DNA from: Planctomycetota bacterium
Lineage (GTDB): Bacteria > Planctomycetota > Planctomycetia > Planctomycetales > Planctomycetaceae
Direction of reading: 5' to 3'
DNA: 62,070 nt
NCBI GenBank assembly: GCA_003671275.1
Contig: QWPB01000128.1
Span: 1 to 62,070, forward strand
In this document: piece after piece, positions 36,380-41,095 of the stretch
Numbering within the stretch: position 1 is the stretch's first letter
Layout of the letters: the number at the start of each line of letters is the position of its first letter
Notes under the pieces: generated by a model
What the model was told of the DNA's origin: nothing
What the model saw: only the letters and a program-made list of their open reading frames with translations
The model's database searches: none
Program-made: the position numbers and the translations under genes

Positions 36380-36862
36380 ATGAGCCAGTCCAAAACCAGA
36401 CCCGGTGATCCCGATCGGGTTGTCTGTCGTAACCGCAAAGCGCTGCACGAATATGAAATCGTGGACCAGCTTGATTGCGGCATCATGTTGCATGGCAGCG
36501 AAGTCAAAAGCGTACGCAACAACAAAGTGACACTGGAGGAAGGCTTCGCCCGGATCGAACGGGGCGAAGTGTGGTTGTACAACGTCGATATCGCCGAATA
36601 CTCGGAGGCGAATCAGATGAACCACCCGCTGCGGCGTCCTCGCAAGCTGCTGCTGAAGAAGAAAGAAATCACCAAGTTCGCGGCCCGAGCGGACGAATCG
36701 GGGATGTCACTCATCCCACTGGATGTGCATTTCTCGCGAGGATTCGTAAAAGTGCGTCTCGGTGTCGGCAAGGGGCGCAAGCTGCACGACAAGCGTGAAA
36801 AGCTGAAGTCCGATGACGCGCGTCGCGAGATTCAGCAGGCCATGCGTCAGCGGAATCGTTAA
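36380..36862 (+). CDS. smpB: SsrA-binding protein
   Basis: 160 residues. SmpB brings tmRNA to stalled ribosomes. Motifs: VCRNRKALHEYEIVDQLDCG, GIMLHGSEVKSVR, NQMNHPLRRPRKLLLKKKEI, the C-terminal basic GKGRKLHDKREKLKS and the unfolded tail REIQQAMRQ. Full length with normal N- and C-termini. The gene encoding tmRNA is not in the window. Confidence 0.96.
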   Translation: MSQSKTRPGDPDRVVCRNRKALHEYEIVDQLDCGIMLHGSEVKSVRNNKVTLEEGFARIERGEVWLYNVDIAEYSEANQMNHPLRRPRKLLLKKKEITKFAARADESGMSLIPLDVHFSRGFVKVRLGVGKGRKLHDKREKLKSDDARREIQQAMRQRNR

Positions 36863-36921: not shown

Positions 36922-39900
36922 ATGCTCGACCCGCAACTCAGTCTGAAGCTGCTCACCCCCGGCGGACTGCCAGACGCCGTTGCCGTCAGCGCACTGAGCG
37001 AAGTTCCCTTTGATCAGGCCGTCACGGCCCTCAAACGGCTGCGTGAGATCCCCCGGAATGATCAGGAACTCGCGATCTTCGCGCACATCCTGCCCACATT
37101 AGCCATCAGCCTGGAAGAAGCCGCCACCCCGGACATCTCGCTCATCAACCTCGAGCAGTATCTGGGGGCCTGTCCGGACCGGATCGAGATCCTGTCATTC
37201 CTCGCCAATCAGCCCCGGGCGGTCGAAATTCTGGTGCGGCTGTTTGTCGGTAGCCAGTATCTGACCGGGATATTGATGCAGAATCCCAAGTATCTGCCTC
37301 AACTGACTCAGCACAACCGGCTGGCCGAAATCAAGAGCCGACAACAATTCGTCGAGGAAGGCCGGATCGCCACCGATCCCGCCCGGACATGGTCCGAACG
37401 CCTGATCTCCCTGCGCCACTTCCAGCAGTGGGAACTGCTGCGGATTGCCGCGTGCGACACGTTTGGCCTGATGGATTTCAAGGCCACCACGCTCCAGCTG
37501 TCACTGCTGGCCGATGGCATCACCCAGCTGGCGTTGCGGTTTGCGGCGGAAGAGACTCGCGTCGATCCGGGCGACTTCGTCGTCCTGGCACTCGGTAAGC
37601 TCGGTGGCGAGGAACTGAACTATAGCTCCGATATCGATCTGATCTTCGTCTCTCGCGAAGGCGGTCCCGAGTTGGTGCCACTTGCTCAGCGACTGATACG
37701 CGCCCTGTCCGAACCCACAACGGCGGGCTTCCTGTATCGCGTTGACATGCGTCTGCGCCCGTGGGGGCAGGCGGGGGCGCTGGTCACGACAGTGGCCAGC
37801 TGGAGTGATTATCTCCGACGACACGGAAGGCTGTGGGAGAAACAGGCCCTGCTCAAGGCTCGACCGATTGCGGGCGATCTGTCGTTGGGGCGGGCGGTCC
37901 TGCGGGAATTGGATTCTCAAATCTATCAGGTGGATGCCGAAGCCGTTCGACAGAACGTGCGGCAGATGAAGCAGGAAATTGAACGCTCACTCACCCAGCA
38001 TGGTCTGCCATGGAACGAGGTCAAAGGGGGCCCCGGAGGGATTCGGGACATCGAATTCCTCACGCAGTCGCAGCAACTGATTCATGGCGGTGACCTCCCG
38101 GAGGTCCGCAGCATCAATACCCTGGATGGACTGGTGCGGCTGGCAGACCGTGATTTCATTCATGCCAATGAGTATCGCCAGCTGGCCAGCGGATACGTCT
38201 TTCTGCGGACAGTCGAGCATTCACTCCAGCTGCTCTACAACAAGCAGGAGCACGCCCTGCCCAGTGGTTCTCGCGAGTTGACTGCGCTGGCCAAACGAAT
38301 TGACTTTCCGGGACCGACGGAATTCCTGGCCTACCACGATCAGCACCGCCGCGAGATCCGTAAGGTGTTTGATAAGTACCTTGGCGGTGGCAGTGCCACC
38401 AGCAGCTCGGTTGTCCCGGAGGACTCGTTCGAACGACATCTGGGAGCGGCAGCCACCAAATATCGCGAACTGTTTCCGGAAGACCGAGCGGCCCGTGATC
38501 TGGCCCTGCTGGCTCGCGTGGATGCACAACATCCGGTGTGCGTGGCCGCTCAACTGCGAGAACCGGGGCGATGGGAACTCACCATTGCGGGTTACGACCA
38601 GATTGGCGATCTGTCACTGATCTGTGGAGTGCTGCTGGCTCGTGAAATCAACATCGAAGCGGGCGATGTTCTGACCGGATCTGATTTGCCGTCCACCCTC
38701 CCCGGACAGACCGCCTTGCCGGTGGCTCCCCGCCGCAAGTTCATCAACGTATTCCAGGTCACGGGCCCCGCAACTATTCCAAACGATTTCTGGAAGGAGT
38801 ACGAGCAAGAACTGACCGAGTTATTACTGGCAGCTACTCCCGGTTCCCCGGAAGCCACTCAGGGCCGACTGATTCGCCGATTGGCCAGCATTGTCCGCTT
38901 TGAGCCGGAGTCCCGCTCCGCCCTGCTGCCGGTACATATCGTCATCGACAACGATTCCTCTTCCGAGGCCACAATCTTACGGATTACCGGGGAAGACTCG
39001 ATCGGCTTTCTTTACGAACTTTCCAATGCACTGGCCCTCAGTGGGATTTCGATCGAGCGGGTCTCCGTGCGATCCGAAGGGCGTTTGGCCCGTGACACCC
39101 TGGCGGTCACGGACGAGCAGAGCCGAAAGATCACGGACCCCGGACGGATCGCCGAGCTGCGCACGACAATTACGCTGATCAAGCACTTCACACATCTGCT
39201 GCCGCAGTCGCCCAATCCGGAAGCCGCCTTACGGCATTTCCGAGAGTTCCTGTCCCAGTTTTTCGCCCGTGTTGACTGGTCGGAGCAAGTGGCCTCGCTG
39301 GGGCGATCCGATGTCCTTGTCGCCTTGTCTCGCGTGCTGGGGGTCAGTGATTTTCTCTGGGAGGAGTTCCTCCGACAACAGCAGCCCGGGCTCGTTCCGC
39401 TCGTTACTCAGACGGATGGTGGCGAGGCTCGCACGCTGGGGGAACTGGCCACCGACCTCCGCAGCCAATTGTCGGGGACGACTGATTACGAGGAACAACG
39501 GCGGCGACTGAATAACTTCAAAGATCGTGAAATGCTCCGTGTCGACATGCGACATATCTTGGGTGACCAGGACACCTTTCGCGGGTTCTCACAAGAGCTG
39601 ACTGATGTCGGGCAGGTCGTGGTCCAGGCGGCTTTGGACATCAGCCAGGCGGAGTTGTCCACGCTCCATGGCCAGCCGCAGCTGGAAGATGGTCGTGCCT
39701 GCCGCCTGAGTGTTTGTGCGCTGGGTAAGTTTGCCGGTTGCGAGTTGGGGTTCGCCTCGGATATCGAATTGATGTTTCTGTTCGAAGGCTCCGGAATGAC
39801 GACCGGGTGTGAACCGCTTACCAATCAGGAGTATTACGAGCGGATGATTGATCAATTTGTGAAATCGATTCACGCTCGTCGCAAGGGAATCTTTGAAATC

Positions 39901-40560
39901 GACCTGCGGCTGCGGCCTTATGGCAAAGCTGGCAGCCCGGCAGTGCTGCTGGACACGTTCCGCCGGTACTTTGCCCCCGAAGGTGCCGCGTGGCCCTTTG
40001 AACGGCAGGCACTGGTCAAGTTTCGCCCCCTCATCGGTGATCCGGAATTCAATCGGCAAATCTTGGAAGAACGGGATCAGTTGATCTTTGCTCCCGGCCA
40101 ATTCGATGTGGCTGCCATGCGCGCCATGCGCGACAAGCAGATCCGCCAGCTGGTCCAGCCAGGTACGTTCAACGCCAAGCTCAGCCCCGGGGGACTGGTT
40201 GACATCGAGTATCTGGTTCAGGGGCTGCAGTTGCTTCACGGGGGATTGCACCCGCAGGTCCGAACCGCCAATACCCGGGAGGCAATGCGGCAACTGGAAG
40301 CCATCGGAATTTTGAGTACCGAGCAGCGGCTGGGGCTCAAAGATGCGTATCGCTTTTTACGGCGACTGATCGACGCCCTGCGGATGGTTCGGGGGGATGC
40401 CCGCGACTTGACGGTACCGCCGATGCAGTCTGAGGAGTTTCGGTTCCTGGCCCGGCGAATGCGATTGTTTCGGGACTCCACCGACCTGGTCGCTGATCTG
40501 GAATCGTACACGGTCATCGTGCGTGATCTGTGCCAGTCCCTGCTGCCCTCGTCGAACTGA
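36922..40560 (+). CDS. glnE: GlnE-type glutamine synthetase adenylyltransferase with internal tandem ACT domains
   Basis: 1212 residues; normal GlnE is about 940-1000. First nucleotidyltransferase half: LALGKLGGEELNYSSDIDLI (D237, D239) with RVDMRLRPWGQAG. After about residue 520 a 200-residue insertion carries two ACT-like units: ACT1 about 550-614 (WELTIAGYDQIGDLSLICGV) and ACT2 about 668-733 (TILRITGEDSIGFLYELSNA, then LSGISIERVSVRS). The second half resumes with CALGKFAGCELGFASDIELM (D947, E949) and IDLRLRPYGKAGSP. GlnE adenylylates and deadenylylates glutamine synthetase in response to PII and glutamine. ACT pairs of this kind are the glutamine sensor of GlnD. The second metal Asp is Glu949 here. 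Smaller downstream nrdR is convergent. Confidence 0.93.
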   Translation: MLDPQLSLKLLTPGGLPDAVAVSALSEVPFDQAVTALKRLREIPRNDQELAIFAHILPTLAISLEEAATPDISLINLEQYLGACPDRIEILSFLANQPRAVEILVRLFVGSQYLTGILMQNPKYLPQLTQHNRLAEIKSRQQFVEEGRIATDPARTWSERLISLRHFQQWELLRIAACDTFGLMDFKATTLQLSLLADGITQLALRFAAEETRVDPGDFVVLALGKLGGEELNYSSDIDLIFVSREGGPELVPLAQRLIRALSEPTTAGFLYRVDMRLRPWGQAGALVTTVASWSDYLRRHGRLWEKQALLKARPIAGDLSLGRAVLRELDSQIYQVDAEAVRQNVRQMKQEIERSLTQHGLPWNEVKGGPGGIRDIEFLTQSQQLIHGGDLPEVRSINTLDGLVRLADRDFIHANEYRQLASGYVFLRTVEHSLQLLYNKQEHALPSGSRELTALAKRIDFPGPTEFLAYHDQHRREIRKVFDKYLGGGSATSSSVVPEDSFERHLGAAATKYRELFPEDRAARDLALLARVDAQHPVCVAAQLREPGRWELTIAGYDQIGDLSLICGVLLAREINIEAGDVLTGSDLPSTLPGQTALPVAPRRKFINVFQVTGPATIPNDFWKEYEQELTELLLAATPGSPEATQGRLIRRLASIVRFEPESRSALLPVHIVIDNDSSSEATILRITGEDSIGFLYELSNALALSGISIERVSVRSEGRLARDTLAVTDEQSRKITDPGRIAELRTTITLIKHFTHLLPQSPNPEAALRHFREFLSQFFARVDWSEQVASLGRSDVLVALSRVLGVSDFLWEEFLRQQQPGLVPLVTQTDGGEARTLGELATDLRSQLSGTTDYEEQRRRLNNFKDREMLRVDMRHILGDQDTFRGFSQELTDVGQVVVQAALDISQAELSTLHGQPQLEDGRACRLSVCALGKFAGCELGFASDIELMFLFEGSGMTTGCEPLTNQEYYERMIDQFVKSIHARRKGIFEIDLRLRPYGKAGSPAVLLDTFRRYFAPEGAAWPFERQALVKFRPLIGDPEFNRQILEERDQLIFAPGQFDVAAMRAMRDKQIRQLVQPGTFNAKLSPGGLVDIEYLVQGLQLLHGGLHPQVRTANTREAMRQLEAIGILSTEQRLGLKDAYRFLRRLIDALRMVRGDARDLTVPPMQSEEFRFLARRMRLFRDSTDLVADLESYTVIVRDLCQSLLPSSN

Positions 40561-40603: not shown

Positions 40604-41095
40604 TCAGCGGTCCACAGATTTACCGCGTCCACGAGGTGAGTCGGGCCGCTCCCGCAGAATTGGTTGCAGCTCCTGCACAAAATCGTTGACATCCTGAAAC
40701 GACCGGTACACCGAAGCGAACCGCACGAAGGCCACTTGATCGAGCCGTTTCAGCGATTCCATCACTCGTTCGCCGAGATACCGCGAAGGGACCTCCCGCT
40801 CGAAGTGGGCGTACACGTCGCGTTCGATGTCGGACACGATTCGTTCAATCTGATCCGGGCTGATGGGCCGCTTGTAGCATGCCTTTTCCAGGCCGGCCCG
40901 GATTCGCTCGCGGTCAAAGGGCACCCGGGCTCCGTCTTTCTTGATGACCTTAAGAGGGGACTCCTCGATCTTTTCATAAGTTGTAAAGCGCCGACCACAA
41001 TCCAGGCACTCCCGCCGACGGCGAATCACGAACTCCTGGCTTCCGCGGGAATCGACGACTTTGGTCTCGCCCTTCTGGCAAAACGGGCAGAGCAT
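40604..41095 (-). CDS. nrdR: Transcriptional repressor NrdR
   Basis: 163 residues. The N-terminal zinc ribbon is [17 protein letters not shown]...[13 protein letters not shown]. An ATP-cone follows ([60 protein letters not shown]). NrdR represses ribonucleotide reductase genes through NrdR boxes when dATP is high. No rnr gene is in the window. It is convergent with glnE, with a 43-bp gap. Confidence 0.96.

Follow-up and report, generated by a model that had tools for sequence, protein, structure and literature searches.

A 62,070-nucleotide stretch of a Planctomycetota genome (contig QWPB01000128.1), referred to here in its whole length as the window, carries a glnE gene for the enzyme that adenylylates and deadenylylates glutamine synthetase (GS). 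In this gene, the N-terminal deadenylylation (AR) half and the C-terminal adenylylation (AT) half are separated by a pair of ACT domains of the kind that ends GlnD. The gene is a single intact open reading frame (ORF) of 1212 codons, which runs from ATG to stop and is free of frameshifts. The protein was identified as GlnE by PF03710 (E = 1e-95) and PF08335, GlnD_UR_UTase (E = 7e-38); both families matched in each half, on either side of the insert, showing two tandem nucleotidyltransferase domains in one chain. The NCBI equivalog model for bifunctional GlnE, NF008292, scored 484.3 bits against a cut-off of 487, with the match interrupted by the insert. No other GlnE with both halves was found in the host genome.

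Sequence comparisons confirmed that the insert is a GlnD-type C-terminal tail, consisting of a linker helix and tandem ACT domains. The GlnD tail model TIGR01693 (positions 645-845) spanned both units (E = 1.5e-10), and hhalign alignment of a 67-member insert profile with the tail of the host's own GlnD covered 207 columns and again both units (E = 6.7e-10). Both of these alignments begin at the linker. The second unit, ACT2, was matched by PF01842 over residues 684-734, with an E value of 9.8e-5 for the whole protein and 7e-6 for the insert alone, the latter at 26 bits and slightly below the Pfam cut-off of 27 bits; the tail of the GlnD model NF003467 matched the same region (E = 3e-12). ACT1 is more diverged from GlnD than ACT2, and its own match in Pfam was weak (PF22629, E = 0.002, residues ~559-584). 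The doubt about ACT1 was removed by the family alignment, because its members matched ACT profiles in bulk (PF01842 in 57/67 and PF24931 in 64/67). D692 and G695 in the loop of ACT2 are invariant in the 67 sequences, and D559 and G562 of ACT1 are conserved, so the ligand-loop aspartate and glycine are invariant or nearly so in both units. No HD domain was found in the protein by Pfam, and the chain therefore lacks the nucleotidyltransferase-then-HD order of GlnD itself. Matches of the insert to adenine phosphoribosyltransferase sequences in PDB (E = 0.016-0.09) were discarded as chance, as the model has an ACT fold and the family profile matches almost only ACT domains.

The structure of residues 500-790 was modelled with AlphaFold2 from the alignment of 67 sequences. 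The model had a predicted local distance difference test (pLDDT) score of 90.8 and a predicted template modelling (pTM) score of 0.89, and contained two beta-alpha-beta-beta-alpha units at residues 550-637 and 684-762. In ACT1, strands were located at residues 550-558, 577-585 and 606-614 and helices at 563-573 and 623-637; the linker forms helices H11-18 and H21-32 of the insert model. The top structural matches by VIA-align were tandem-ACT regulatory regions, namely aspartate kinase (Z = 10.6) and threonine dehydratase (Z = 8.1-8.7), a fold search of this kind being unable to discriminate the ligand of the pair. In addition, the part from the linker through ACT1 (window positions 38419-38883, insert-model residues 1-155) resembled the N-terminal part of a Mycobacterium smegmatis enzyme, the 180-kDa glutamate dehydrogenase (Z ~8), hinting at a sensor module common to several nitrogen enzymes. 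In a near-full-length AlphaFold model (pLDDT 86.5), both catalytic halves were kept together with the ACT pair; its pTM of 0.63 makes the mutual placement of the domains uncertain.

The architecture agrees with the original prediction, made from the sequence of the window, that two ACT units (residues 550-614 and 668-733) resembling the C-terminus of GlnD lie between the halves of this GlnE. Hidden Markov models, including the ACT profile search that had been proposed as a check, the profile-profile comparison and the AlphaFold model (pLDDT 91) all indicated a tandem ACT fold and not another fold. The boundaries and the motif ITGEDSIGFLYELSNALALSG were right, with the final helix of ACT2 continuing to residue ~762. 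A frameshift or assembly artefact, named there as an outcome that would overturn the idea, is ruled out at this gene by the intact ORF and by the same architecture in many single-contig genomes.

Both active sites of the window GlnE carry metal-binding carboxylates of the form [DE]-x-[DE], with SDIDL in the AR half and SDIEL in the AT half. The AR half aligned to the AR domain of E. coli GlnE (PDB 1v4a, E = 1e-48), and its D-x-D motif was kept in 66/66 full-length relatives. The AT motif of the window GlnE is D-x-E, in contrast to D-x-D (SDLDL) in E. coli GlnE. D-x-E in the AT half appeared to be a signature of the ACT-bearing subfamily, with one noticed exception (locus L071, SDLDL). The motif of the nucleotidyltransferase superfamily is a degenerate [DE]-x-[DE] (PMC8097203); because this motif tolerates either acid, AT and AR activity are both expected, and the two halves are predicted from their sequences to be active. 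E. coli GlnE (b3053; PDB 1V4A and 3K7D) shares with the window GlnE the two homologous nucleotidyltransferase halves (AR before AT), the conserved catalytic motifs and a GS, encoded in the same genome, that carries the target tyrosine. However, the E. coli enzyme (946 residues) has no ACT domain, as had been stated, whereas the window GlnE has a GlnD-type sensor of ~230 residues between the halves. As a negative control, E. coli GlnE gave no ACT signal at the position of the insert (score -2.9), and the segment was absent from it in the alignment. The insert lies after the AR half, at the place of the central regulatory region of E. coli GlnE, and the alignment left both active sites intact.

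Next, we examined the other nitrogen-control genes of the host. On contig C144, the gene order was amtB (partial)-glnK-glnB-glnD, and the GlnD, encoded apart from the glnE of the window, was complete, its 580 bits exceeding the cut-off of 519. The T-loop of each of the two host PII proteins reads YRGAEY, in which the uridylylatable Tyr51 is kept. The only GS found with PF00120 bears PLDKDIYGLSPEE at the adenylylation site, so a substrate with the adenylylation tyrosine is present in the same genome. Because all parts of the classic cascade are present, the ACT-bearing GlnE is no stand-in for GlnD in the host, where the ACT pair adds an input at most.

The fused gene was found in 31/32 sampled genomes of the host family, and GlnD in 32/32. 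One genome of the family (G305) has GlnD and no detected GlnE, the sole such case among the 32. The fused architecture was also present in single-contig genomes (G003, G020, G034 and others). The survey of planctomycete GlnE that had been proposed thus returned the fusion throughout nearly all of the host family, and ordinary and half-type enzymes in others. Other families of the class have an ordinary GlnE of ~1050 residues without ACT domains, together with GlnD in families f5 and f7 and without it in f2 and f3. A suspicion of tandem duplicated GlnE genes in these families was dropped, as PF03710 matches and ORF lengths showed one ordinary GlnE of that size. In two genomes of f2 and f3 (G058 and G038; loci L072 and L073), ordinary GlnE was accompanied by PII without Tyr51, and GlnD was undetected in their families.

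A third form is an ACT-ACT-AT half-enzyme of ~700-800 residues, found in G290, G114, G270, G138, G052, G041, G039 and G084, and as a fragment in G312. In the first five of these genomes, the half-type was the only GlnE homologue found; neither an AR half (PF03710 search) nor GlnD was found in them. A strict rule that the half-type occurs only where GlnD is missing was broken by G039 and G041, which have both. The glnA gene adjoins the half-type gene in G290 and lies beside or near it in G114 and G052. In T-loop alignments, Tyr51 of PII was replaced by M, I or F in the GlnD-less G114, G138, G290, G312 and G052, and the GlnD-bearing genomes retained it in at least one PII. This loss of Tyr51 is separate evidence that those planctomycetes really lack GlnD. 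The coordinates of these features are given in Table 1; in the window, glnE is flanked by smpB on one side and by nrdR, on the opposite strand, on the other.

Table 1. Positions of the glnE gene, its parts and neighbours in the window, and of related loci in other genomes
Feature	Position	Strand	Description
glnE	36922..40560	+	Order AR - ACT - ACT - AT; intact ORF, GlnE by Pfam/NCBIfam
AR (deadenylylation) half, residues ~103-485	37228..38376	+	N-terminal nucleotidyltransferase; PF03710 103-327, PF08335 348-485
AR catalytic motif LNYSSDIDLIF, residues 232-242	37615..37647	+	Conserved D-x-D
Helical linker (YRELFPEDRAARDLALL...), residues ~508-547	38443..38562	+	Ahead of ACT1; compared to the linker that precedes the ACT pair in GlnD
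ACT domain 1, residues ~548-640	38563..38841	+	Beta1-alpha1 loop D559-x-x-G562; AlphaFold fold, structural matches, conserved D/G
ACT domain 2, residues ~668-762	38923..39207	+	Motif ITGEDSIGFLYELSNALALSG, loop D692-x-x-G695; PF01842 and NF003467 matches
AT (adenylylation) half, residues ~770-1205	39229..40536	+	C-terminal nucleotidyltransferase; PF03710 at 39322-40068; aligns to the C-half of E. coli GlnE
AT catalytic motif LGFASDIELMF, residues 942-952	39745..39777	+	D-x-E; D-[IV]-E in the listed forms, 66 full-length relatives
smpB	36380-36862		Neighbour of glnE
nrdR	40604-41095	-	Neighbour of glnE
Half-type GlnE (ACT-ACT-AT)	L066:4826-7213 (G290), L064:3215-5620, L065:269-2614		
Half-type GlnE (ACT-ACT-AT), further loci	L067:914-4186, L063:3809-6118, L062:3577-5889		
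PII without Tyr51	L165 (G114), L173 (G290), L174 (G138), L170 (G312), L169 (G052)		

To follow the insert beyond the phylum, 84,980 species genomes were scanned, and the best 80 of 218 relatives were kept. Domain calls showed the AR-ACT-ACT-AT order in Chloroflexota (Anaerolineae and Ardenticatenia), in Calditrichota and in one metagenome-assembled genome (MAG) of Spirochaetales; the bearers include an isolate, Anaerolinea thermolimosa IMO-1. In an Abditibacteriales MAG (Abditibacteriota), the AR part (L122:3-512) and the ACT-ACT-AT part (L122:530-2758) were in adjacent ORFs, reflecting a split gene or a frameshift. In a maximum-likelihood tree, all ACT-linked AT halves fell into a single clade, distinct from the ordinary ones, with an SH-like approximate likelihood-ratio (SH-aLRT) support of 100 and a long stem; this points to a single origin for the ACT-AT unit. 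The deepest branches of this clade are half-types with patchy support and long branches, and given the many open forks of the tree, either the half-type or the full type may be ancestral.

In the class of A. thermolimosa, none of 200 genomes had a GlnD above the cut-off, and the other matches covered the HD part only. At least 40 of the 200 Anaerolineae genomes carry a match to the GlnD tail, nearly all within a frame of GlnE length, and both halves were intact where these proteins were read. PII was detected (E <= 1e-8) in 46 genomes of the same draw. Among the 40 listed Anaerolineae with ACT-bearing GlnE, PII was found in 10 (plus one weak match), and neither GlnD nor PII was detected in 29. 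In addition, all 17 other genomes with ACT-bearing GlnE that were checked have GS, and in the best GS of 16 of them the adenylylation tyrosine is retained, within a motif resembling DKDLYxLPPEE; the GS of G270 has a divergent motif at this site. In the fetched stretches, glnA lies beside the ACT-bearing gene at 10/35 Chloroflexota loci, at one of two Calditrichota loci and at the one Spirochaetales MAG locus.

Because the insert is the ACT-ACT tail of GlnD, a direct amino-acid input to GlnE is the natural reading. In E. coli, GlnD is the glutamine sensor, and its ACT pair is regarded as the sensing part (PMC3173338). We consider it probable that the window protein is a glutamine-gated switch for GS adenylylation and deadenylylation with the sensor tail of GlnD built in; the ligand, the direction of its effect and the independence from PII are what we infer. 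A GlnE would have acquired a complete GlnD-type tail, linker helix and both ACT domains, between its catalytic halves, and glutamine would most likely bind the ACT pair. Under abundant glutamine, the pair would favour the AT half, leaving GS adenylylated and of low activity; under a shortage, it would favour the AR half, so that GS-AMP would be deadenylylated and active. In the window host, this enzyme would work beside the intact GlnD/PII cascade. In Anaerolineae without GlnD and mostly without PII, it would be the main or only input of nitrogen status to GS modification. We propose more tentatively, rating it somewhat short of an even chance, that GlnE in Anaerolineae and relatives is a self-contained, PII-independent glutamine switch into which the GlnD-PII-GlnE cascade has collapsed, and that the half-enzyme of the GlnD-less deep planctomycetes performs glutamine-gated, one-way adenylylation of GS.

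Several observations weigh against a glutamine switch that replaces upstream signalling. GlnD is kept in the host and in its whole family, and Tyr51 is kept in the PII proteins of the host. The GlnD-less planctomycetes of f2 and f3 (e.g., G058 and G038) use ordinary GlnE; because they manage in this way, ACT domains are not required for life without GlnD. The E. coli enzyme has no ACT domains and still responds to glutamine, through allosteric regulation at a third site (PMC5448240), and ACT domains as a class bind many amino acids or none, glutamine being the inferred ligand here. Moreover, most of the Chloroflexota genomes are MAGs, and completeness is unstated for genomes reached through loci, so absence is weaker evidence there.

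The ACT pair could also sense another amino acid, such as glutamate or a branched-chain or aromatic end product, as an extra metabolic input. This is unlikely but deserves weight, given that the ligands of the best structural matches are varied (aspartate kinase; threonine dehydratase, isoleucine; CASTOR1, arginine; SerB2, serine) and that the diverged ACT1 has few Pfam matches by itself. However, the nearest sequence relatives over both units are GlnD tails, and glutamine is the obvious feedback signal for the GS pathway. In E. coli, the two activities of GlnE answer to PII, which drives adenylylation, and to PII-UMP, which drives deadenylylation (PMC12409994). Alternatively, the pair might be a structural or dimerization module or might offer PII a docking platform; the signal would then still come from PII and PII-UMP, and no small ligand would be bound. 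The position of the pair at the central regulatory region of E. coli GlnE would suit this role, as would the GlnD retained throughout the host family and the Tyr51 kept in the host. Nevertheless, the ligand-loop aspartate and glycine are almost unchanging, and because the 29 Anaerolineae genomes without detected GlnD or PII carry the fusion, PII docking is not the general purpose of the pair; we regard this explanation as rather improbable. Finally, an assembly, binning or search artefact behind the fusion or the absences, suggested by the many MAGs among the relatives, is largely refuted and very improbable, as the architecture recurs in single-contig genomes and in the isolate A. thermolimosa IMO-1, 0/200 for GlnD is incompatible with random loss, and Tyr51 has been lost in the PII proteins of five GlnD-less planctomycetes.

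The glutamine-gated switch thus bears on the functional part of the original prediction as follows. That one protein may sense glutamine directly and adenylylate GS is plausible through the GlnD-type tail, but in the host it would be an extra input; direct glutamine sensing by GlnE is not new as such, being known for the E. coli enzyme (PMC5448240). Partial replacement of GlnD does not hold in the host or its family, but it fits the Anaerolineae, and the case is stronger in Chloroflexota than in the host. In comparison with GlnD, with which the linker helix, ACT1 and ACT2 align, the window GlnE lacks the HD hydrolase domain and is not expected to modify PII, and its tail is internal, between adenylyltransferase halves. 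Tandem ACT domains gate an enzyme or complex of an amino-acid pathway in aspartate kinase, threonine dehydratase and the CASTOR1 arginine sensor, as proposed for the window GlnE; unlike those proteins, it would act by covalently modifying another enzyme, GS, and its sensor lies between two opposite activities. No description of a GlnE with ACT domains was found in the open-access literature, subscription papers and preprints lying outside the search.

The bicyclic cascade of GlnD, PII and GlnE is a textbook case of metabolic signalling through covalent modification. If the proposed switch is real, a widespread GlnE that carries the sensor of GlnD in genomes lacking GlnD and often PII would illustrate how such a cascade can be shortened, and a single protein may take the place of an entire signalling chain. 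It would also be possible to measure directly, in one purified protein, how glutamine controls two opposing activities. The usual annotation of the ACT-bearing genes as ordinary GlnE is corrected, and Chloroflexota and Planctomycetota gain a concrete, testable mechanism of nitrogen control.

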